Program-made: the position numbers and the translations under genes
DNA from: Trachythela sp. YZ-2020
Lineage: Eukaryota > Cnidaria > Anthozoa > Malacalcyonacea > Clavulariidae
Assembly: GCA_016169945.1 (NCBI GenBank)
Contig: JADLSH010000147.1
Location: forward strand, 248,001-312,000
Length of the DNA: 64,000 bases
Direction: 5' to 3'
The notes under the pieces: model-generated
Told to the model about the DNA's origin: nothing
Seen by the model: the letters and a program-made list of their open reading frames with translations, nothing else
Databases searched by the model: none
Shown here: positions 1 to 61,480 of the stretch, piece by piece
How positions within the stretch are numbered: the stretch's first letter is position 1
Layout: each line of letters starts with the position of its first letter

Positions 1-192
1 GAAAGAAGTGAAAATAAGGAGTAAGTCGTTACCCTGGATGAACAACACAATAAGACTTAAAATAAACAGGAGATTTAAACTCTTAAGAAAGCTATAAAAA
101 CCAAATGCGCAGAAGATTGGAACAATTACAAGAACTTAAGAAATGAGATTACGTCAGAGCTAAGAAAGGCAAAAGCTGATTATTTCTCGAAC

Positions 193-1002
193 ATGTTCGG
201 CGAGGTAACGACTTCTAAAGCATATTGGGATTTAATAAAAAAATCTGTTTCACCAAAAGTTCGCCAAAATATCGGACCTATCAAGAGAGATAATGGTACC
301 CTAGCAGTGAAAGATGAAGAAAAATCAAACCTATTTAATTCATACTTCGCAATGATAGGTGAAACATTAGCTCTTTCATTACCTAGACCCCCGACGACCA
401 CCCCTACGCAAATGAATGACTCTAGAAGATCATCATGTGATAAAATTTGCATATCCCAAGATAACATACAGAGGTATATTATAAACATAAACCCCAAAAA
501 GTCAACAGGACCGGACGGCATATCCCCAAGACTCTTAAAGTTAGCTGGAAATGAAATTATACCATCTTTAATCGATTTATTTATTTGGAGCGCCCAGGCA
601 GAAGAAATGTTCGAAAGTTGGAAACTTGCCAGATTAACCCCGATCTTTAAAAAGGAGGCCAAAGAAGACAGAGAGAATTATCGCCCCATCAGTCTACTGT
701 GCGTGCCGAGCAAGATCCTTGAAGAAGAGGTAAACAACACCCTCGTGAAACACGTCTTCGAAGAAAATCAGTTAATGACAGATCGACAGTGGGCTTATCG
801 TCGCGGCTATTCCACGGAACTGCTTCTGGCTCACTTAACAGAAACTTGGAGAAAGGCTGTCGATTCCGGCTTAAAAGTTGCCGTGGCCTTTATAGATTTT
901 AAAAAGGCATTTGACAGTGTATCCCACCCAATTCTAGAACGTAAGCTTCAAAACGACTTTGGCATCGGTGGCAGCCTGCTCACGTGGTTAAAAGCTATCT
1001 GA
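193..1002 (+). pseudogene. LINE reverse transcriptase, N-terminal part (frame 1)
   Basis: This 269-residue frame carries the region between endonuclease and RT (GPIKRDNGTLAVKDEEKS, the standard pre-RT linker), then NPKKSTGPDGISPRLLK, YRPISLL and the first catalytic aspartate in FIDFKKAFD. It stops at TGA 1000-1002 because of the one-base shift at 990-993, and the chain continues in the next frame. The stretch upstream of 193 reads as linker in another frame with stops, so the first codon here is not a genuine start. Confidence 0.85.
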
Positions 1003-2003
1003 GAGATAGGACGCAGTACACGGTTGTAAATGGTAAAGAATCCTCTATCGCTAAGATTACCTACGGAATCCCACAGGGATCAGTACTAGGCCCCACCCTA
1101 TTTGCACTGTTTACAAACGATCTACCTGAAAATGTAGAATCTGGAGATGTTTATATGTACGCGGACGATACGACGTTATATTGTATCGGAGACTCAGCCG
1201 ACGAAGTGGTATCGACACTTAACAAAGCCCTGAGTGAACTTTATGTGTGGTGCATAGCCAATCAACTAACCCCACATCCCCAAAAAAGCGAAGTGATGCT
1301 CCTCTCAAAACAACGTATAACAGGCCCACTTGCCCCAGTTTTTCTAGGAGAGCAAATGATCAAGTGGGTAAAAAAGACGAAACTTCTCGGGATGGTCATT
1401 GATGAGAATCTCAGTTGGAATGAACATATATCGGAACTAAAACTGAATTATGTTAACAAATTAAATCTTGTAAAAACATCAAGGTTTTTGCCGACAAGTG
1501 TACTATTAGATTTATACTTTAAAGTCATTCTTCCATCCATTACCTACGCATTAGTTGTCTGGGGTGGATGTAGTAACAAGGAAAACTTCAAGTCATTAGA
1601 ACGCTTGCATTGTAGAGCTGCAAGAATTATATACAAATTACCTAGATATATGCCATCGGAAGATGTGCTTTCCAAAGTTGGTTGGAACACATTATTCTTC
1701 TACTATAAGACAGCTATATTGAAACTAATTTGTAAAATAATTAAGAATGTAACACCTAACTCGATGTCAGACTTGGTAAACAGACGAGAATGCAATTACT
1801 CTCTACGAGCCAAATACCAACTATCTACACCCCGCTTCAAAACAAAAACTCTGAAGCTCTCTATAACGTATAGAGGTGCAACCTTGTGGAATGATATAAA
1901 TCGAAAACATAGCGAAATAAACATTGATGAATATGACAATGTTAACGCTTTCGTAAAAAAGGCCATAAAAACAATCACCTTTAAAGACTTTGTCTTTTTA
2001 TAG
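984..2003 (+). pseudogene. LINE reverse transcriptase, C-terminal part (frame 3)
   Basis: This frame covers the catalytic and C-terminal half: GIPQGSVLGPTLFALFTNDL (motif B), MYADDTTLYC (motif C with the two catalytic Asp), the LGMVIDENLSWNEHI block, a thumb region, and a tail in which ATLWNDI matches the conserved RGA-x-LWN motif of CR1/L2 elements. It runs uninterrupted to the TAG at 2001-2003. The nominal start lies in the overlap with the preceding frame and is not a translation start. Confidence 0.85.
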
Positions 2004-9212: not shown

Positions 9213-10180
9213 ATTTTAACCATTGTCGAAATCCAGTCAGAGATTTTGCTGCCCTTACATCACTGGGTATACAGTGCCATAAGACTACACCACTATAGCT
9301 ACAGCAATTTTTGAAATGAATAATACTTGATATACTGGGAACAGCAAGTTTTGTAGGATTTGTAAAATGAGTGTCCCAAAAATACTAAATTAAATTGCAG
9401 TATATAACATTTTCATTTTGATACAATATTGACCGAGGTCCAGATGTTTGAAATTGAATTAACACATTTGAAAATGCCAAAAAAATAGCATAAAACGGCC
9501 CGATCAAATATATACATCGATATTTCTATTTTGCTCAAAAAAAACGCATGTACATCGTTATTGTTCCAAACATCAAGATTTATTCATCTGAGGAAAACAT
9601 TATCCTTGGGCATGAATAGATCTTCTTGTCATCAAAGGAATTTTGGTTCAGTTCTTCATTGAACGTTTCACAGGCCAAAACAATTGCCTCCCGAAAGTGT
9701 TTTCAATGTTTTCGACTAAATTTTCAGTCAACGTGCATTATTGTTTCATTTCTATTCCCAAGGGTTACAAAAGACTAAAAAAATAACAAATCTACTAGGA
9801 AATAATCTGAAGTTAAAGTTAACTTCGGTCAATATTGCATCAAAATTCAAGTGTTATATACCAAAATTTGCATACAGTAAAGCTTATTTTAGTGAAACAT
9901 CTGTTCTAGTTTTTCTAACTAAACAGTAATGGAGATGCCTAGGTAAATTTGTTGGGTCGTTGAACCTCAATTTGTTCAATTATGCTCTGGATATCCGTTG
10001 AGCACTTTGCCAAAAGTTCCTATAATCAACGACATCAATTTTAAATATTATATGAATTATTTAGCAATTCTCGGTGGTTAACGAGGTGATGCGCTCAAAC
10101 GCAGCAACTATGATGTTACTGTACAATAACCGCGGCCGGTAATAGTTCGACCCGTTCTCCATAAAAAAATAGAAGACGCA
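9213..10180. other. No recognisable gene (about 1 kb)
   Basis: AT-rich, with short frames only. Nothing with a motif or homology that I recognise. Confidence 0.5.
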
Positions 10181-10185
10181 GTAGA

Positions 10186-10600
10186 AATATCATCTGGTTC
10201 AATCCTTCCTTTACCAAGATAGTGGAAACAAATATTGCTCGAAGATTCATTCGTCTCATTGGTAAGCATTTTCCAGCTAAAAATCAACTCCACAAGATCT
10301 TCAATCGGAACACTGTCAAAGTTAGCTACTCCTGTATCGAAAATGTCAAAAGTAGTATATCGCGACACAATCAACATCTACTCTCAAAACCCCCAGCTCT
10401 ATCCAAACCCTGTGGATGCAACTGCGGAAAAACAAGTGAATGCCCATTAGATGGCATAGAAATATGATGTATGGGCGACAGCTTTGTTAGTAGCATAGTT
10501 TACAAAGCGAAAATGTAAACACTTGATGACCGAACGACAAAAGAGTACATCGTAATGACAGTCAAGTCATCGTAATGACATCGTAATGACAGTCCTCCAA
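10186..10600 (+). pseudogene. Retroelement C-terminal fragment with Cys-rich knot, probably pre-GIY-YIG
   Basis: The plus frame at 10222-10467 reads IARRFIRLIGKHFPAKN, LHKIFNRNTVKVSYSC and CGCNCGKTSECPLDG. Continuing past a stop it gives IVYKAKM and then further broken sequence. The ordered pattern (KVSYSC, HNQHLL, CNC-x-CPL, VYKA) is the Cys-rich segment that precedes a GIY-YIG nuclease domain in a class of cnidarian reverse-transcriptase proteins. That assignment is from memory of the family. The nuclease core is not preserved and no RT is adjacent. Confidence 0.5.
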
Positions 10601-10899
10601 CAACAAAATCTACTCGCCCGACACAGAGCTTTCCAAATAGGTGTGGGAATTAAAAGAGAACGAAAGCCAGTACGACATTATAATTATGGTCAACTTTGAG
10701 TCGAGCTTCGGGGTATATGCCTGATGGAGAAGTTAAAGATTATGAAGTCAGATAAGACAAACCTACTGGACAAAAGATTAGAATTATTCGCGAAATGTCG
10801 CCAACCAAGAACAATTCAGCGCGGGGACATTCAAGCGCACGCCCCGAGAACACACGCATCACCGAGCGGTAGATGAATTGACCCAAGCAAAAAAGGCTG

Positions 10900-22856: not shown

Positions 22857-25400
22857 ATCCCGGTGCAGCGCTCCCTGCGATTCCGGTGCAGCGCTCTGAC
22901 CACTGAGCTACAGAGTCCAGTTGCCGAGCGTTAACCACAAGTTCGTGTATATATATATATAGATGCGGGTACTGCATGTACTGTGGGTACGGCGGGTACT
23001 GCGGGTACTGCGGGTACTGCGGGTTGTGATAAGGTAAATTACAAGATTTTTTTTTGTTTTGGGGGGGGGGTTTCTGCATCTCACTCGATTGAAATTGATG
23101 TAGAAGGTTTAGGTGGATGGAAATTTCGAGTAAAATATTATATACAATATTTTAGACCTGAACGGGAACGGCTGCGAAAAATGCAACTCTAAGTCCTCCG
23201 ACAGAAATTGAACCTGCGGCCCTGCGATTCCGGTACAGCGCTCTGACCACTGAGCTACAGAGTCCAGTTGCCGAGCGTTAACCACAAGTTCGTGTATATA
23301 TATATATATAGATGCGGGTACTGCATGTACTGTGGGTACGGCGGGTACTGCGGGTACTGCGGGTACTGCGGGTTGTGATAAGGTAAATTACAAGATTTTT
23401 TGTTTTGTTTTGGGGGGGGGTTTCTGCATCTCACTCGATTGAAATTGATGTAGAAGGTTTAGGTGGATGGAAATTTCGAGTAAAATATTATATACAATAT
23501 TTTAGACCTGAACGGGAACGGCTGCGAAAAATGCAACTCTAAGTCCTCCGACAGAAATTGAACCTGCGGCCCTGCGATTCCGGTACAGCGCTCTGACCAC
23601 TGAGCTACAGAGTCCAGTTGCCGAGCGTTAACCACAAGTTCATGTATATATATAATATAGATGCGGGTACTGCGAGTTGTGATAAGGTAAATTACATGTT
23701 TTTTTTTGTTTGGGGGGGGGGGTTTCTGCATCTCACTCGATTGAAATTGATGTAGAAGGTTTAGGTGGATTGAAATTTCGAGTAAAATATTATATACAAT
23801 ATTTTAGACCTGAACGGGAACGGCTGCGAAAAATGCAACTCTAAGTCCTCCGACAGAAATAGAACCTGCGGCCCTGCGATTCCGGTGCAGCGCTCTGACC
23901 AGTGAGCTACAGAGTCCAGTTGCCGAGCGTTAACCACAAGTTCATGTATATATATAATATAGATGCGGGTACTGCGAGTTGTGATAAGGTAAATTACATG
24001 ATGTTTTTTTTTGTTTTGGGGGGGGGGTTTCTGCATCTCACTCGATTGAAATTGATGTAGAAGGTTTAGGTGGATTGAAATTTCGAGTAAAATATTATAT
24101 ACAATATTTTAGACCTGAACGGGAACGGCTGCGAAAAATGCAACTCTAAGTCCTCCGACAGAAATTGAACCTGCGGCCCTGCGATTCCGGTACAGCGCTC
24201 TGACCACTGAGCTACAGAGTCCAGTTGCCGAGCGTTAACCACAAGTTCATGTATATATATATAATATAGATGCGGGTACTGCGAGTTGTGATAAGGTAAA
24301 TTACATGATGTTTTTTTTTGTTTTGGGGGGGGGGTTTCTGCATCTCACTCGATTGAAATTGATGTAGAAGGTTTAGGTGGATGGAAATTTCGAGTAAAAT
24401 ATTATATAGGCCTACAATATTTTAGACCTGAACGGGAACGGCTGCGAAAAATGCAACTCTAAGTCCTCCGACAGAAATTGAACCTGCGGCCCTGCGATTC
24501 CGGTACAGCGCTCTGACCACTGAGCTACAGAGTCCAGTTGCCGAGCGTTAACCACAAGTTCATGTATATATATAATATAGATGCGGGTACTGCGAGTTGT
24601 GATAAGGTAAATTACATGATGTTTTTTTTTTTTTGGGGGGGGGGGTTTCTGCATCTCACTCGATTGAAATTGATGTAGAAGGTTTAGGTGGATTGAAATT
24701 TCGAGTAAAATATTATATACAATATTTTAGACCTGAACGGAAACGGCTGCGAAAAATGCAACTCTAAGTCCTCCGACAGAAATAGAACCTGCGGCCCTGC
24801 GATTCCGGTGCAGCGCTCTGACCAGTGAGCTACAGAGTCCAGTTGCCAAGCGTTAACCACAAGTTCATGTATATATATAATATAGATGCGGGTACTGCGA
24901 GTTGTGATAAGGTAAATTACATGATGTTTTTTTTTGTTTTTGGGGGGGGGTTTCTGCATCTCACTCGATTGAAATTGATGTAGAAGGTTTAGGTGGATTG
25001 AAATTTCGAGTAAAATATTATATACAATATTTTAGACCTGAACGGGAACGGCTGCGAAAAATGCAACTCTAAGTCCTCCGACAGAAATAGAACCTGCGGC
25101 CCTGCGATTCCGGTGCAGCGCTCTGACCAGTGAGCTACAGAGTCCAGTTGCCAAGCGTTAACCACAATTCATGTATATATATATATATATAGATGCGGGT
25201 ACTGCGGTTGTGATAAGGTAAATTACAAGATGTTTTTTTTGGGGGGGGGGTTCTGCATCTCACTCGATTGAAATTGATGTAGAAGGTTTAGGTAATATTT
25301 TAGACCTGAACGGGAATGGCTGCGAAAAATGAAACTCTTTGAAACTGCGATTCCGGTGCAGCGCTCTGACCACTGAGCTGCAGAGTCCAGTTGCCAAGCG
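22857..25400 (-). repeat. Tandem array of a tRNA-derived SINE, nine copies
   Basis: On the minus strand each unit contains a tRNA-like head: TAGCTCAGTGGTCAGAGCG (A box with D arm), then GCAGGTTCAATTCCTGT-type T arm (B box), followed by a common ~150 bp body, G/T homopolymers and AT dinucleotides. Using the string GCGCTCTGACCA as anchor, copies start near 22891, 23238, 23588, 23890, 24195, 24508, 24813, 25118 and 25361. Spacing is about 350 bp for the first two intervals, 302-313 bp for the next five, and 243 bp for the last. The first three units also carry a GCGGGTACT minisatellite. Head-to-tail arrangement is unusual for a SINE. The anticodon loop lacks U33, so these are not tRNA genes. Confidence 0.9.
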
Positions 25401-25950
25401 TTAACCAGGACTTAGAGTGGCATTTTTCGCAGCCGTTCCGTTCAAAATATTGTATTATAATATTTCACTCGAAGTTTCCATCCACCTAAATTTCAATTCC
25501 AATTTCAATCGAGTGAGATGTAGAAAAAAAAATTCTTCTAATTTACCTTATTGCAACCCGCAGTACCCGCATCTATATAATTATATATATATACATGAAC
25601 TTGTGGTTAACACTTGGCAACTGGACTCTGTAGCTCAGTGGTCAGAGCGCTGCACCGGAATCGCAGGGCCGCAGATTCAATTCCTGTCGGAGGACTTAAG
25701 GCTCTTTTCCACTCATCGCAAAACCAACTCGCAAACTCGCTGCGAGTTCTTGCATGTAATTAAAATAAACTGTCGAGCATTGTGATTGGATGAAAGTACT
25801 CGCAGCGAGCTTGCGAGTTGGTTTTTGCGACGAGTGGAAAAGAGCCTTAAGAGGTGCATTTTTCGCAACCGTTCCCGTTCAGGTCTAAAATATTGTATAT
25901 AATATTTCACTCTAAATTTCCATCCACCTAAACCTTCTAAATTTTAATGT
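25401..25950 (+). mobile_element. Inverted (plus-strand) copy of the same SINE, split by a MITE
   Basis: The SINE body appears in plus orientation (CATTTTTCGCAGCCGTTC at 25420; tRNA-like head at 25628-25690), so the array ends in an inverted copy. The SINE continues after the TTAA-flanked MITE at 25700-25846 with GCATTTTTCGCAACCGTTCC. The orientation switch forms a long inverted repeat with the adjacent units. Confidence 0.8.
25700..25846. mobile_element. TTAA-flanked MITE, 147 bp, about 54 bp inverted repeats
   Basis: The element starts GGCTCTTTTCCACTC and ends in the complement GAGTGGAAAAGAGCC. The arms stay paired for about 54 bp through AACTCGCAA and CTCGCTGCGAGT. Exact TTAA copies flank it (25696-25699, 25847-25850). 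The empty site is the SINE sequence GGACTTA-GAG. TTAA target choice points to piggyBac, Kolobok or Sola3-type transposases. Confidence 0.9.
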
Positions 25951-50010: not shown

Positions 50011-50286
50011 TTTTTCAAAAACTCTCGTTTATGCTGGCTTTAACAATGTAACACTTTTGTATTTCTATAAAATAGCTTATTGTTGTCTCGGCGACTTCCC
50101 GATGTGACTGCAACTGATTCTGATTTCTAGAATGAAGGCAACTATTTAGTATTAAACACCAAAACAGCGCAATCTGTTTATATACTTGACATAGTTGTCA
50201 TAGTACATTAGCAAGTTAAAGTACGTTATGTGTTTGTACAATTTTTGCATTGTCACCTATATTTATATATATATATACATATATAC

Positions 50287-50590
50287 ATGCATGTCTGCAG
50301 ATTTGACTATATATGCTCCTTCACTTGTGTTGTTGAGCACTCTGTGAGGTTAATTGGTGGCTATAAGCTATAATGCAAAAGCTCACTTCCCTTGTGGTCG
50401 TTTGAGCACTCTGGCCCCAAGACACTTCACGCATGTCTGGATGCGCATGTGTCTGAGTATTGTAGCCTACCACATGCGCTTGGTGAGGGCAAGAGTATGG
50501 TGTATAAATACGAAGTCACTCGCATCTAGACTGCGTTACAAGCTGCACTGACGAGCCGTTGAACGGCGAAACATGCATGTCTGCAGATTT

Positions 50591-50610
<20 letters not shown>
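50287..50610 (+). mobile_element. Retrozyme (hammerhead-bounded small retroelement), 286 nt monomer
   Basis: The block CATGCATGTCTGCAGATTTG at 50286 is repeated at 50571, so the sequence is a little more than one unit of a 286 bp repeat (50296-50581 between predicted cleavage sites). The 3' repeat carries a full type I hammerhead; the 5' repeat carries only its 3' part. A stem GCGCATGTG / CACATGCGC (near 50443 and 50470) and a TATAAATA box (50503-50510) lie inside. It is flanked by AT dinucleotides. This matches the architecture described for animal retrozymes: non-coding retroelements that make circular RNA and are mobilised by other elements. Confidence 0.85.
50543..50586 (+). ncRNA. Hammerhead ribozyme, type I, intact core (retrozyme)
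   Basis: Stem I CTGCA (50543-50547) pairs with TGCAG (50582-50586). Core CTGACGA lies at 50548-50554 (C at the tolerant position 7). Stem II is GCCGT / ACGGC with loop TGA. GAA is at 50568-50570. Stem III is the self-complementary ACATGCATGT, which leaves a two-base loop in one molecule and favours a dimeric fold. The cleavage triplet is GTC, with cleavage after 50581. Confidence 0.92.
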
Positions 50611-50621
<11 letters not shown>

Positions 50622-50704
50622 CGTGTAGGTTTAGGTCTACGAAACGCAAAGAGTGCTCGACAACATATAGTTAGAGCAAATTATAGATTTTCGCTTACCT
50701 CAAA

Positions 50705-50760
50705 ACTTGTCTGCAACAGGCTGTTTCATCTGTAAAAGAATCATCAGGCAGTTTACAAGT
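50705..50760 (-). ncRNA. Hammerhead-like ribozyme of the Penelope-like element, left arm
   Basis: Identical to the fold at 51318-51373, in the opposite orientation. Stem I is ACTTGT-AAA-CTGC with GCAG-ACAAGT. Core is CTGATGA and GAA. Stem III is ACA / TGT with loop GCC, and the cleavage triplet is GTT. Stem II is weak (TCT / AGA closed by a U-U pair). Confidence 0.65.
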
Positions 50761-50809
50761 ATCGAAAAGAAATGACCGCTTATATGCTTCCTGCCGGGGC
50801 GTGGGAGTG

Positions 50810-51064
50810 TGTGTGGGAGACAATGTGTGCATGCATGGCTTTGTTTGCGTTGTTTACGCGAAATTTGTTACGATGACGACATCGTGAAATTATTTCAGCT
50901 CTTTTGTTGAGTAAACAATCCTTGTTTTTTTCTTTCAAAATACAAAATTTTTCTTCTAAACATAAATTGCATCGTTTTGATCCTCCCGTATACGAAATAG
51001 AATGTTTTACGAAATACGTATTAAAATTGGCAAATTTTAAAAGGATTTCAGTATTAATTGGCAA
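50810..51064 (-). pseudogene. Penelope-like element C-terminus, left arm
   Basis: The minus frame encodes the last ~80 residues of a Penelope-like protein: a Cys pair CNLCLEEKFCIL, then LLNKRAEIISRCRHRNKFRV and a His-rich tail (HAHIVSHTHSHAP). The reverse transcriptase and most of the nuclease domain are missing because the copy is 5'-truncated at the palindrome centre. Confidence 0.75.
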
Positions 51065-51300
51065 ATTTTAAAACATTCTATTTCGTATACGGGAGGATCA
51101 AAACGATGCAATTTATGTTTAGAAGAAAAATTTTGTATTTTGAAAGAAAAAAACAAGGATTGTTTACTCAACAAAAGAGCTGAAATAATTTCACGATGTC
51201 GTCATCGTAACAAATTTCGCGTAAACAACGCAAACAAAGCCATGCATACACACATTGTCTCCCACACACACTCCCACGCCCCGGCAGGAAGCATATAAGC
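51048..51300 (+). pseudogene. Penelope-like element C-terminus, right arm
   Basis: This is the mirror copy of the left arm, in plus orientation, with the same CNLC and CRHRNKF blocks and only a few substitutions (for example THIVSHT versus AHIVSHT). It truncates at a different base from the left copy, which leaves the short asymmetrical loop. Confidence 0.75.
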
Positions 51301-51317
51301 GGTCATTTCTTTTCGAT

Positions 51318-51373
51318 ACTTGTAAACTGCCTGATGATTCTTTTACAGATGAAACAGCCTGTTGCAGACAAGT
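51318..51373 (+). ncRNA. Hammerhead-like ribozyme of the Penelope-like element, right arm
   Basis: ACTTGT (51318-51323) and CTGC (51327-51330) pair with GCAG (51364-51367) and ACAAGT (51368-51373). CTGATGA is at 51331-51337. Stem II TCT / AGA has a U-U mismatch at its base (51338-51350), and GAA is at 51351-51353. Stem III ACA / TGT has a GCC loop, and H17 is T (51363). Minimal type I hammerheads of this kind are known in Penelope-like elements. The poor stem II may reduce activity. Confidence 0.65.
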
Positions 51374-51399
51374 TTTGAGGTAAGCGAAAATATATATAT

Positions 51400-58539: not shown

Positions 58540-59600
58540 TACAGTGAAGACGATAGTCACAGTGAAAGTGAATTCCATTACCCAAACGAGATGGAAAAAT
58601 AAAACAACTTAGACGAAAGGACAAAGGTCTGAAAATACAACAAAAAAACAACTTACGATTTAAACGTGTGGATCCGTTACTGTGCTTCAGTAAAGGAGGC
58701 AAGAAAACTAGACGAAATACCAGCAAAAGAGTTAAACGGCCACCTGTGCAAGTTTTTCATGATCGCCGTGAAGAAATACGGCAGTGTTTACGAGTCAACA
58801 TCTCTAACCTCTTTTCAGCGCAGTATTCAACGATATCTGAACAACACAAACTCCAATATAAACATTCTCAAAGACCCCGAATTCTCCAAGTCCAGAGAAG
58901 TCATCACCACCAGAAAGAAGCAGCTCGTCGAGTGTTTTGGCAAATAAAATCGTCCGCAAGCCGCCCGAGTCCTGACCGAAGCTGAAGAAGACTTGCTCTT
59001 CGAGAAAGGCTTGTTTGGAGACCATGATCCAGAAGTCCTCCAGAGAACAGTTTGGTGGTCTTTGTCATTCCATTTCGGCTTCAGAGCTCGAGACGAGTCC
59101 AGGAAACTCAAGTGGGGAGATGTTGCCTTGGATATCGACCCAAAAACAGGAAACGAAGTCGTTGTTTGGATGGCAGTACGAGGCTCTAAAACAAGACATG
59201 GCGACGGACATCAAAGAGCGTTCCTACCAACGGCTCAAGCAACCAACAACCAACGTTGTCCAGTCAGTCTTTACAAAACCTTTGCCAGTCATCGACCAGA
59301 CCAAGCTAAAAATCCAGAGTCCCCTTTCTTTCTGGCTGTAAACCACCGACGAAAACCTGATTCGCAGATATGGTACAGCAACGGCGCTTTGGGCAAAATA
59401 CGATTGGAAAATTTCTCTTGAACGCCGCTAAAGCTGCTGGTCTACCCGGGAATATAACCAACCATTCCGTTCGGAAGACTTACATATCTCGTCTTATGCA
59501 TGCAGAAATTCCCGTGAATTATGTGGCTCAACTCAGTGGGCACAGAAATCTAAAGAGTCTCGATTCGTATAAGTATTCCCCTATCCGGACCTCGCAGCCA
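58540..59600 (+). pseudogene. Crypton-type tyrosine recombinase relic (DUF3504-like)
   Basis: The frame at 58666-58947 encodes an N-terminal SAM-like segment (LCKFFMIAVKKYGSVYESTSLTSF, SIQRYL). The same frame continues past a TAA at 58948 with AARVLTEAEEDLLFEKGLFGD and QRTVWWSLSFHFGFRARDE, placing the first catalytic Arg in FRARDE, then LKWGDVAL. After a frameshift near 59400 it gives NHSVRKTYISRLMHAEIP (the H-x-x-R pair) and LSGHRNLKSLDSYKYSP (the final His and the Tyr nucleophile). All recombinase landmarks are present in order. Metazoan Cryptons and their domesticated relatives (KIAA1958, ZMYM2, QRICH1) share this domain. One stop and one frameshift only. Confidence 0.85.
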
Positions 59601-59624
59601 CTAAATAACATATATATATATATA

Positions 59625-59735
59625 TATGTCTGGATGCGCATGTGTCTGAGTATTGTACCACATGCGCTTGGTGAGGAAGCTGCACTGACGAGCCGTTGAA
59701 CGGCGAAGCATGCATGTCTGCAGATTTGACTATAT
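59625..59735 (+). mobile_element. Truncated retrozyme copy
   Basis: Shares GTCTGGATGCGCATGTGTCT, the CACATGCGCTTGGTGAGG stem and the terminal hammerhead with the 50.3 kb retrozyme, but lacks an internal stretch of about 55 bp that includes the TATA box. Flanked by AT dinucleotides on both sides. It lies directly after the Crypton recombinase. Confidence 0.85.
59680..59723 (+). ncRNA. Hammerhead ribozyme, type I, one core change
   Basis: CTGCA (59680-59684), CTGACGA (59685-59691), GCCGT-TGA-ACGGC, GAA (59705-59707), GCATGCATGT, cleavage triplet GTC (59716-59718), TGCAG. It differs from the 50.5 kb copy by G instead of A at the first stem III position (59708), which must pair as G-U. Confidence 0.8.
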
Positions 59736-59739
59736 ATAT

Positions 59740-60060
59740 ATATATATATATGTACATATATGTTTTCCTTGGAGAGTAATAGAAGAGGATGTATTGAGGC
59801 TCATTCCTGCTTAATAACAATTGAATAATAATAATAAGTTTAATAATAATGTTATTATAATTACACTGTTATTTATTAACCAGTGTATGAAATACTAATC
59901 CCTAATTTTACCCTATTACTATTCATTTAATCGTGCCAGAATTGTTTCTGCAGCATATTTGGTGTATAAATAAAGGAACACCGATCGAAATTCAAACAAG
60001 CTGTTATAGGCTAGATGGTGACAGCTTGTGCTGAGTTGAAGATTAGATTAACCACATTAG
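59740..60060. other. AT-rich spacer, no gene
   Basis: AT dinucleotides and an AATAAT-rich stretch. Nothing coding. Confidence 0.5.
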
Positions 60061-60067
60061 TTTGAGT

Positions 60068-61480
60068 GGATCATTTCAATTGAATCCCATTTTTTGACAA
60101 AATATGGGATATAGATGTTTTTGAAACGTTCTGTTCTTCATACTTTCGAGGGTTCCTAAGATGATTTTTGTGGTTAGCAGGATCAGGAAGAAGTTCATGT
60201 AATTTGTTATCATGGTTTAACACAGATTTATACAAAGACAAGCATTGTTTCTCTCTGCGTTCGTGGAGTGTAGATAATCGCGATTGATCGAGAGAAGCAG
60301 TATATGAGAGATGAGGGAACATAATCTTTATCGCTCTTTTTCGAACATGTTCGATTTGGTCAGATAAAGTTAAGAAGAGTGAAGTATGCCAAACCTGACA
60401 TGCATATTCCAATACCGGTCGGATAAAAGTACAGAAGATATTTAATAAGTCTGCAGCCGGGACACCATTGCGTTTCAAAATTCGAAGGGCATATAACCTT
60501 TTACTAGCTTTAGCACATATGTTATCAACATGAATATTCCATGTAAGGTCGCTTGAGATTGTTATTCCCAAGAGCTTGAAACTTTTCACTATATCAAGTG
60601 AGATGTTATTGATGGTGAGCTGATCATTTGCTAACGGGGTCTTTAGGAAAGATATTCGGAATTCTTTCGCTTTCTTAGTGTTAACGCGCATGTTATTAGC
60701 TTCTGTCCAGGTATTGACGATGTTGAGGTCCGTTTGGAGCATAGTATAATTAGTTGACTTGGAAACGACTTCATAGGCAGTACAATCGTCTACATATTTG
60801 TATAAGGGTAGGGTTGTTGTAAGATCGTTTATCATTATAAGGAAGAATAAGGGGGCAAGTATAGTTCCTTGTGGGACACCAGCATTAATTTCCTTCCAAT
60901 CAGATTTTATTTACCCATTTTTACTTGGAAATAACGGTGTTCTAGGAAATTTGCACACCAGTTCAATAGTATGGGGGGAAAATTGAGATTTGATAGTTTT
61001 TCTAGGAGGGTATGGTGGTCAACGCGATCGAAAGCTTTGGAAAAATCGATCATGCAGGATCCTATGGAGTTACCAGGTGTTTCGAGTGCAGCTAACCAAT
61101 TATGGATAAGGTGAATTAGGGCATGTGTTGTGGAGCTTTTCTTGATATTTCCGTATTGGTAGTGGTCTAAATGCGGCCAGATATAAGGACTCAGCCAACG
61201 GAAAACAAACCGTTCCAGTATTTTACTTAGGGCAGGGGTAAGTGATATAGGTCTTAGGTCGTCATCGACGGACTTTTGATTGGGTACTTTAGGTATTGCT
61301 AGAACGTCGGCACTTCTCAAAACGTTTGGGCGAAAGCCTTGGACGATTGAAGCATTAAATATGGAGGATATGGGATCACTGAGGATACGCGCACAGGTCT
61401 TGAGGAGCCAATTGGGTATATCATCTGGCCCAGTGGATTTCTGCGTGTTAATGTGAGACTACACTGACTGCTGTTCTTGA
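60068..61480 (-). mobile_element. LINE (CR1/L2-like), minus strand, RT half
   Basis: From 61480 down: QMIYPIGSSRPV region; 60907-61320 with LAIPKVPNQKSVDDDLRPIS, LTPALSKILERF and MIDFSKAFDRVDHHTLLEKL (motif A); a frameshift where GVPQGT (readable near 60870) stands; then 60071-60835 with YKYVDDCTAYEVV (YVDD catalytic box), LGITISSDLTWNIHV, PVLEYACQVWH and LSDQIEHVRKRAIKIM. Only one obvious frameshift between the two long frames (254 and 137 residues), so it is fairly young. The endonuclease is absent (5'-truncated). Confidence 0.9.

Follow-up and report, generated by a model that had tools for sequence, protein, structure and literature searches.

A non-coding hammerhead retrozyme in Trachythela sp. 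that is probably copied by the machinery of Penelope-like elements

The stretch of Trachythela sp. YZ-2020 DNA analysed here (64,000 nucleotides, referred to as the window) carries a small element with a type I hammerhead which is, with little room for doubt, a retrozyme. The fuller reading, namely that it is a retroelement without coding capacity or autonomy, belongs with the metazoan non-LTR retrozymes and is copied by the machinery of Penelope-like elements (PLEs), we regard as probable. Retrozymes of this kind are already known; the pattern of insertion ends and the hairpin shared with PLEs are new. A second copy, the truncation of the window copy, 3′ ends anchored in TA tracts and the PLE-shared hairpins are additions to an earlier sequence-only reading of this DNA. 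The features are collected in Table 1.

Table 1. Positions in the window of the retrozyme copies, their flanks and the PLE sequences.
Feature	Position	Strand	Remarks
PLE relic	9984..10804	+	hairpin 9984-10008; PLE coding homology 10150-10804
TA-rich left flank of insertion	50258..50284	.	sequence; (TA)n tract 50264-50277
Half hammerhead, truncated 5′ end	50285..50303	+	stem III strand, cut site after 50295, stem I 3′ strand
Retrozyme unit, cut site to cut site	50296..50581	+	286 nt
TATATAT, unit 13-19	50308..50314	+	putative reverse-transcription start; 47/55 unique 3′ ends at unit 12-20
Hairpin A, GCUC..GAGC-ACUCU	50315..50343	+	model R1, E 0.0093 in 64 kb
Hairpin B, same signal, second copy	50381..50412	+	model R1, E 0.012
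TATAAATA, putative promoter	50503..50510	+	in 28/32 full units
Complete type I hammerhead	50535..50593	+	cut predicted after 50581; palindromic stem III ACAUGCAUGU
(TA)14 tract at 3′ junction	50594..50621	.	common to retrozyme copy and PLE neighbour
Inverted pair of 5′-truncated PLE 3′ ends	50622..51396	-	348-nt arms 97% complementary; PLE C-terminal homology in both arms
Hairpin of PLE neighbour	50650..50677	-	model R1
Second retrozyme copy, 5′-truncated	59626..59737	+	51-nt internal deletion; core GAAG for GAAA

Organisation of the window copy

The retrozyme copy spans positions 50285–50593 of the plus strand and has TA-rich DNA on both sides (50258–50284 and 50594–50621). Exact 30-nt direct repeats at 50285–50314 and 50571–50600 place cut-equivalent positions after 50295 and 50581 and so define the 286-nt unit that had been proposed. 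The accompanying proposal, that the repeat is bounded by a complete hammerhead, holds for the right end only; the left end is a half hammerhead that lacks the catalytic strand. Since the left repeat retains nothing but this cut half, the locus comprises 1.08 units, truncated at the 5′ end, and is not a dimer. In principle, the core further downstream might also cleave the left half site.

The unit has a GC content of 47.6% and its longest stop-free stretch is 65 codons, and no reading frame for RT plus GIY-YIG is present in it. The box said to lie inside the unit was found as TATAAATA, which ends 24 nt upstream of the first paired hammerhead base at 50535.

The hammerhead and its folding

A strict structural scan of the 64-kb window by our own rules, built on the general hammerhead core, returned two type I hammerheads, at 50543–50586 and 59680–59723. 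The claim of an intact type I hammerhead was borne out for the first of these, with every core base in place: CUGACGA, G10.1-C11.1, GAA, A15.1-U16.1 and C17. Stem I has an inner part of 5 bp and a possible outer part of 4 bp (GUUA/UGAC), with the internal loop CAAG/AUU. A triloop UGA is present as well, and these loops may take part in loop 1–loop 2 tertiary contacts. Rfam lends this hammerhead weak support: a permissive search over 701 bases scored Hammerhead_HH9 there at 23.2 bits (E 0.003), while the gathering score is 52, at which Rfam finds no hammerhead in the window. Among the full units from the genome, 29 of 32 preserve the core.

The lone hammerhead is computed at −11.0 kcal/mol and the best fold of the same sequence at −15.0, that is, another fold is preferred. 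The dimeric hammerhead reaches −38.7 kcal/mol, compared with −30.0 for a pair of monomers in their best fold and −22.0 for a pair in the hammerhead fold, and the best dimer fold (−41.7 kcal/mol) retains the dimeric core. Computed energies thus favour the dimer that had been proposed from the self-complementary stem III. A dimer formed through the palindromic stem is, on these models, the likely active form. Dimeric hammerheads have been reported for newts and axolotl (PMC7229834). Folded as a linear molecule, with its register shifted by one base, the unit is modestly more stable than shuffled sequences (z −1.71).

Copies across the genome

The 34-nt core has 4421 matches with up to three mismatches in the genome (578 Mb, 396 contigs), and a longer 46-nt pattern that extends across the cut site as far as ATTTGAC has 4080 with the same tolerance; reversed controls gave 0 in both cases. 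Because 4421 core matches stand against none for the reversed control, the copies are not due to chance, and the expectation that the element would recur in the genome is confirmed. Against viral contigs the 34-nt core gave 0 matches.

A sample of 36 loci was studied in detail, consisting of 16 loci from among the best DNA matches and 20 loci around listed exact core matches on contigs C2–C6; it was drawn from the matches listed and is non-random. Tandem arrays are frequent, with a spacing of about 282 nt, and 18 of the 36 loci hold arrays with at least one full unit. Tandem units had thus been rightly predicted, with the correction that their usual length is 282 nt (16 of 32 measured full units; range 274–288) rather than 286.

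The second copy in the window lacks 51 nt upstream of stem I and is flanked by (TA)n tracts at 59610–59627 and 59731–59750. It lies directly 3′ of DUF3504 and phage-integrase-like (tyrosine recombinase) frames at window positions 58948–59699. At locus L008 (1501–2112) a 173-nt deletion derivative of the unit occurs twice in tandem, each time with the hammerhead, and corresponds perhaps to a smaller circle.

Insertion ends

Ends were mapped by BLAST with a natural 282-nt unit, which yielded 58 chains at the 36 loci; ends at locus edges and duplicates are left out of the counts. Among 55 unique 3′ ends, 47 lie at unit positions 12–20 (40 of them at 19), past the cut site and beside TA-rich DNA, with the exact end point blurred by the unit's own TA sequence. 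The remaining eight are found at unit positions 29, 46, 48, 149, 202, 223, 227 and 256. Loci selected by the core necessarily contain the hammerhead, but the position of the 3′ end beyond it is not fixed thereby. The 54 unique 5′ ends are scattered over unit positions 6–278, with 9, 12, 12, 6, 9 and 6 ends in 47-nt bins. An alternating TA run of at least 4 adjoins 32 of the 54 5′ ends and 31 of the 47 clustered 3′ ends, while such runs account for 2.2% of window positions. Counted by motif over 34 loci and the window, there are 52 terminal 3′ ends, 16 of which have another end opposite them across one TA tract: an inverted retrozyme 3′ end in 11 cases (most pairs being counted from both sides) and a PLE end in five, that in the window among them. 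A further 37 junctions are internal to arrays.

Fixed 3′ and scattered 5′ ends, as read from the genomic copies, are the pattern of target-primed reverse transcription, for which either a circular or an uncut multimeric RNA would serve. A purely DNA-level spread would make the element a satellite with a relic ribozyme, homogenised by unequal exchange and by extrachromosomal circles at TA microhomology. It would agree with units being more alike within arrays (3.9 mean differences between full units, 28 pairs) than between them (8.0, 468 pairs), a difference that local duplication would produce likewise, and TA microhomology could fix one end. It accords poorly with the many solitary 5′-truncated copies that have one common 3′ end, and with TA tracts on both sides, and we consider it very improbable.

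Within the preferred reading of copying by reverse transcription, a 3′ end past the cut site means that the template crossed this site and was hence a circle or an uncut multimer. The ends themselves are explained equally by uncut and by re-joined RNA. Copying from the uncut multimeric transcript, with no circle and a ribozyme dispensable for copying, has a parallel in the lizard PLE, where hammerhead mutants insert like the wild type and unprocessed RNA is the dominant substrate (PMC11167929). The abundance of retrozyme circles in a coral, a mussel and an axolotl (PMC7229834) and the hammerhead cores kept intact in nearly all full units speak against such a template, which we hold to be a serious but lesser possibility next to the circle.

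A hairpin shared with PLEs

The retrozyme unit carries the GCUC..GAGC-ACUCU stem-loop twice, and the same stem-loop occurs near the TA-rich ends of other elements, several of which are PLEs, some with hammerheads. Over the 209.5 kb of the window and 35 loci, non-retrozyme sequence contains 48 occurrences of the hairpin box TTGAGCACTCT with up to one mismatch, and one of the reversed string. GAGC[AG]CT[CT]T sites outside retrozymes have GCTC within 30 nt upstream in 36 of 44 cases. In the fold common to 15 distinct hairpins, GCUC is followed by an inner stem, then by a bulge near UU, by GAGC and finally by ACUCU. With inner triplets assigned by eye, 41 of 45 cells are paired, as against a permuted mean of 26 (p 5e-5). 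In the alignment of the 15 hairpins 99% of cells are paired and the covariation score was reached in 0 of 500 shuffles; three pairs are altered on both sides, a number matched by 11 of 500 shuffles. The outer stem is altered once, from UA to AU, in the family of loci L002, L009 and L010, where the hairpin lies 3′ of the TA site and leads into the PLE frame. This family is the only one to share that arrangement with the retrozyme unit; in PLEs the hairpin is otherwise 5′ of the TA end.

A TA run lies within 90 nt of the hairpin in 29 of 36 cases with enough sequence, compared with 21% of stretches drawn at random from these loci. Same-strand PLE coding is present within 400 nt upstream of 13 of 41 hairpins and of 7 of the 15 distinct model hairpins; the other 28 of 41, which have none over this distance in the sequence examined, are 5′-truncated or unassigned. 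Model R1, which was built from the 15 non-retrozyme hairpins with the retrozyme rows left out, has four window matches at E up to 1: the hairpins at 9984 and 50650–50677, which belong to its training set, and hairpins A and B of the retrozyme. Because the 15 hairpins were gathered by a box that is present in both elements, their 3′ halves were selected and the E-values flatter the match.

The retrozyme hairpins have a weaker inner stem in place of the covarying one, and the UU bulge is not part of their predicted fold. They might accordingly be fossils, if the unit came from, or recombined with, a PLE end and is now copied by another RT, for instance that of a LINE, or if recognition does not depend on the hairpin. 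LINE-type reverse transcriptase frames in the same window and a junction of PLE and retrozyme sequence at locus L067 are compatible with this. It is countered by the TA target common to retrozymes and PLEs and by the retention of ACTCT together with the outer stem (unchanged throughout the 32 full units for hairpin A and in 30 of 32 for hairpin B), though the copies may be too young to show selection. On balance we think fossil hairpins unlikely and favour hairpins that are in use by a PLE enzyme.

The PLE neighbour and PLEs of the same genome

The retrozyme copy is adjoined, across a common TA tract, by an inverted pair of arms, one of which ends in CACG-TATA with the hairpin whereas the other stops about 60 nt earlier. 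Coding homology, inverted copies, a single tailed arm and an AT-rich target all fit a PLE, the arms being 5′-truncated fragments; features described for PLEs include a tail carried by just one arm of an inverted pair and insertion that favours AT-rich simple sequence (PMC3846280). We reject the alternative that 50622–51396 is a derivative of a TA-inserting DNA transposon on account of the PLE coding homology in both arms. Inverted PLE pairs made of a tail-site arm and an arm about 60 nt shorter recur, namely in the window (50622–51396) and at L003, L012, L071 and L073, which looks like the outcome of priming on the two strands of a single TA site at two different start sites.

The neighbour also contains a hammerhead-like motif at 50690–50760 of the minus strand, between the coding remnant and the hairpin, with a core starting at 50747. 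We do not claim it as a hammerhead, given U.U at the base of stem II and no Rfam match there. A relaxed scan of the sampled loci gave six further hammerhead-like motifs, at L005 (poor), L006, L061, L068, L071 and L073, whereas ten shuffles of the window by base composition gave 0.0 on average. At L006, L068 and L073 the hammerhead lies on the same strand as, and between, PLE-like coding sequence (5′) and the TA end, and at L061 the PLE-like coding is on the opposite strand. The shared hairpin starts 52–59 nt past the cut site at L006, L061 and L073 and is absent at this distance at L068.

Homologues indicate that PLEs are present in the retrozyme's genome, with a domain identity that is weak. 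A 313-aa frame at L066 has 1424 homologues at E ≤ 0.001, and among the 120 matches listed those with a named source are cnidarian or sea cucumber. Pfam GIY-YIG matched 0 of 15 PLE frames scanned. Aligned L066 homologues matched GIY-YIG in 5 of 32 cases (best E 0.00049), Dam in as many (best E 0.00073) and RVT_1 in 1 of 32 (E 0.017). Foldseek with an AlphaFold model of the PLE frame (pLDDT 77.7, pTM 0.37) gave no match at E ≤ 0.001, and a PDB profile search with PLE frames lent no support to a GIY-YIG identity. The assignment to PLEs rests on homologues, on motifs read by eye and on the form of the insertions, and the GIY-YIG identity is weak. At L067, around position 1884, a PLE is joined to a retrozyme at the short common string GAAACA inside the hammerhead, a junction that resembles a template switch.

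Other features of the window

A tandem array at 22873–25293 with units of 305–350 bp contains seven tRNA-like Rfam matches on the minus strand and recurring TA tracts; one more such match lies on the plus strand at 25626–25692. ARAGORN found no tRNA in the window, this array included. An ACAG microsatellite of about 210 copies (97% matches) occupies 2144–2980. Two split reverse transcriptase frames (Pfam RVT_1) at 79–2003 (plus strand) and 60071–61458 (minus strand) are LINE-like by eye. An OTU-domain reading frame has 53 matches, of which the two with a named organism are from octocorals, namely Dendronephthya (identity 76%, 41% of the query covered) and Paramuricea (82%, 24% covered).

Discussion

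From the copies, their arrays, the hammerhead core, the end pattern, the shared hairpin and the PLE ends in the same TA tracts, all of which are read in the sequence, we infer the following course of events. Arrays would be transcribed, perhaps from TATAAATA in each unit, and hammerheads, most likely as dimers via the palindromic stem III, would process the transcript to RNAs of about 282 nt, and these may be circularised by a host ligase. A PLE protein would then recognise the GCUC..GAGC-ACUCU hairpins and cut a TA microsatellite. Reverse transcription would begin at UAUAUAU, directly 5′ of hairpin A and 12–19 nt past the cut site. Copying round the circle, or along an uncut multimer, would yield copies in tandem whose 3′ end is fixed and whose 5′ truncation is random.

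Several observations count against this account. The hairpin lies on opposite sides of the TA end in the retrozyme unit and in most PLEs, most hairpins (28 of 41) are without PLE coding within 400 nt upstream, 8 of 55 3′ ends are stray and the GIY-YIG evidence is weak. To these are added the selection of hairpins by their box, the weaker inner stem in the retrozyme, a lone hammerhead that is not the best fold and a mismatch with the start site of the lizard PLE.

For the mobility of animal retrozymes, the laboratory that first described these elements has named PLEs as likely candidates and characterised the repeats as lacking a conserved motif that would identify the partner (PMC7761336). A PLE hairpin or a TA-anchored start for animal retrozymes was not found in the literature searched, which comprised few subscription papers and no supplements. 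If our reading is correct, the shared hairpin, the TA target and the fixed 3′ end name the partner, the recognition element and the start site, and mobility is thereby opened to direct bench tests; retrozyme arrays would then document in the genome that reverse transcription had run round a circular RNA. A more general proposition, which in our estimation might equally well prove right or wrong, is that animal retrozymes are parasites of PLEs. They would carry the PLE recognition hairpin in duplicate beside a TA priming site, and a PLE RT primed by cut (TA)n would run round their circular RNA and leave copies in tandem, all fixed at the 3′ end; the ends of many PLE families would bear the same covarying hairpin.

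Plant LTR retrozymes (PMC4918200, PMC7229834, PMC7761336) are likewise non-autonomous, carry hammerheads and have proposed circular RNA intermediates. They differ by type III hammerheads placed in LTRs, a primer-binding site and polypurine tract, RNAs of 600–800 nt and 4-bp target duplications. A plant-type LTR retrozyme (type III, unit of about 700 nt) is ruled out here by the type I hammerhead and the 286-nt unit.

Metazoan non-LTR retrozymes (Cervera and de la Peña 2020, PMC7229834) have type I hammerheads, tandem units of 150–450 bp and a GC content under 50%. The layout proposed for the present element agrees with this, with its type I hammerhead, tandem units of 274–288 nt and GC content. 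Further likenesses are the non-coding nature of the units, the many copies and the presence of PLE-type elements in the same genome, and the short palindromic stem III resembles that of amphibian hammerheads acting as dimers. In contrast, 3′ ends in TA tracts and a hairpin pair shared with PLEs are features of the element described here, and no such description was found in the part of PMC7229834 consulted. Circles and cleavage, which are predicted for the present element, have been demonstrated for metazoan retrozymes (PMC7229834).

Like PLEs (PMC11167929, PMC3846280), the retrozyme has a hammerhead and a putative start site downstream of it, inserts at simple AT-rich targets, is truncated at the 5′ end and occurs in tandem and in inverted copies. 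The active lizard PLE carries a hammerhead, starts reverse transcription internally and prefers AT-rich DNA; in vitro it uses two adjacent internal start sites and cuts and extends both strands, and the hammerhead is not needed (PMC11167929). Its start site is not homologous to the cut DNA (PMC11167929), whereas at the retrozyme start site TA would pair with TA. Unlike PLEs, the retrozyme has no protein-coding capacity.

SINEs with LINE-like 3′ ends are small non-coding elements that bear the RNA recognition signal of their partner. The retrozyme appears analogous to these as a small non-coding element with a partner's recognition signal, but the partner here would be a PLE, and the template may be circular and so lead to tandem copies. 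In our view, the retrozyme is most likely copied by PLE enzymes in the way that SINEs are copied by LINEs.
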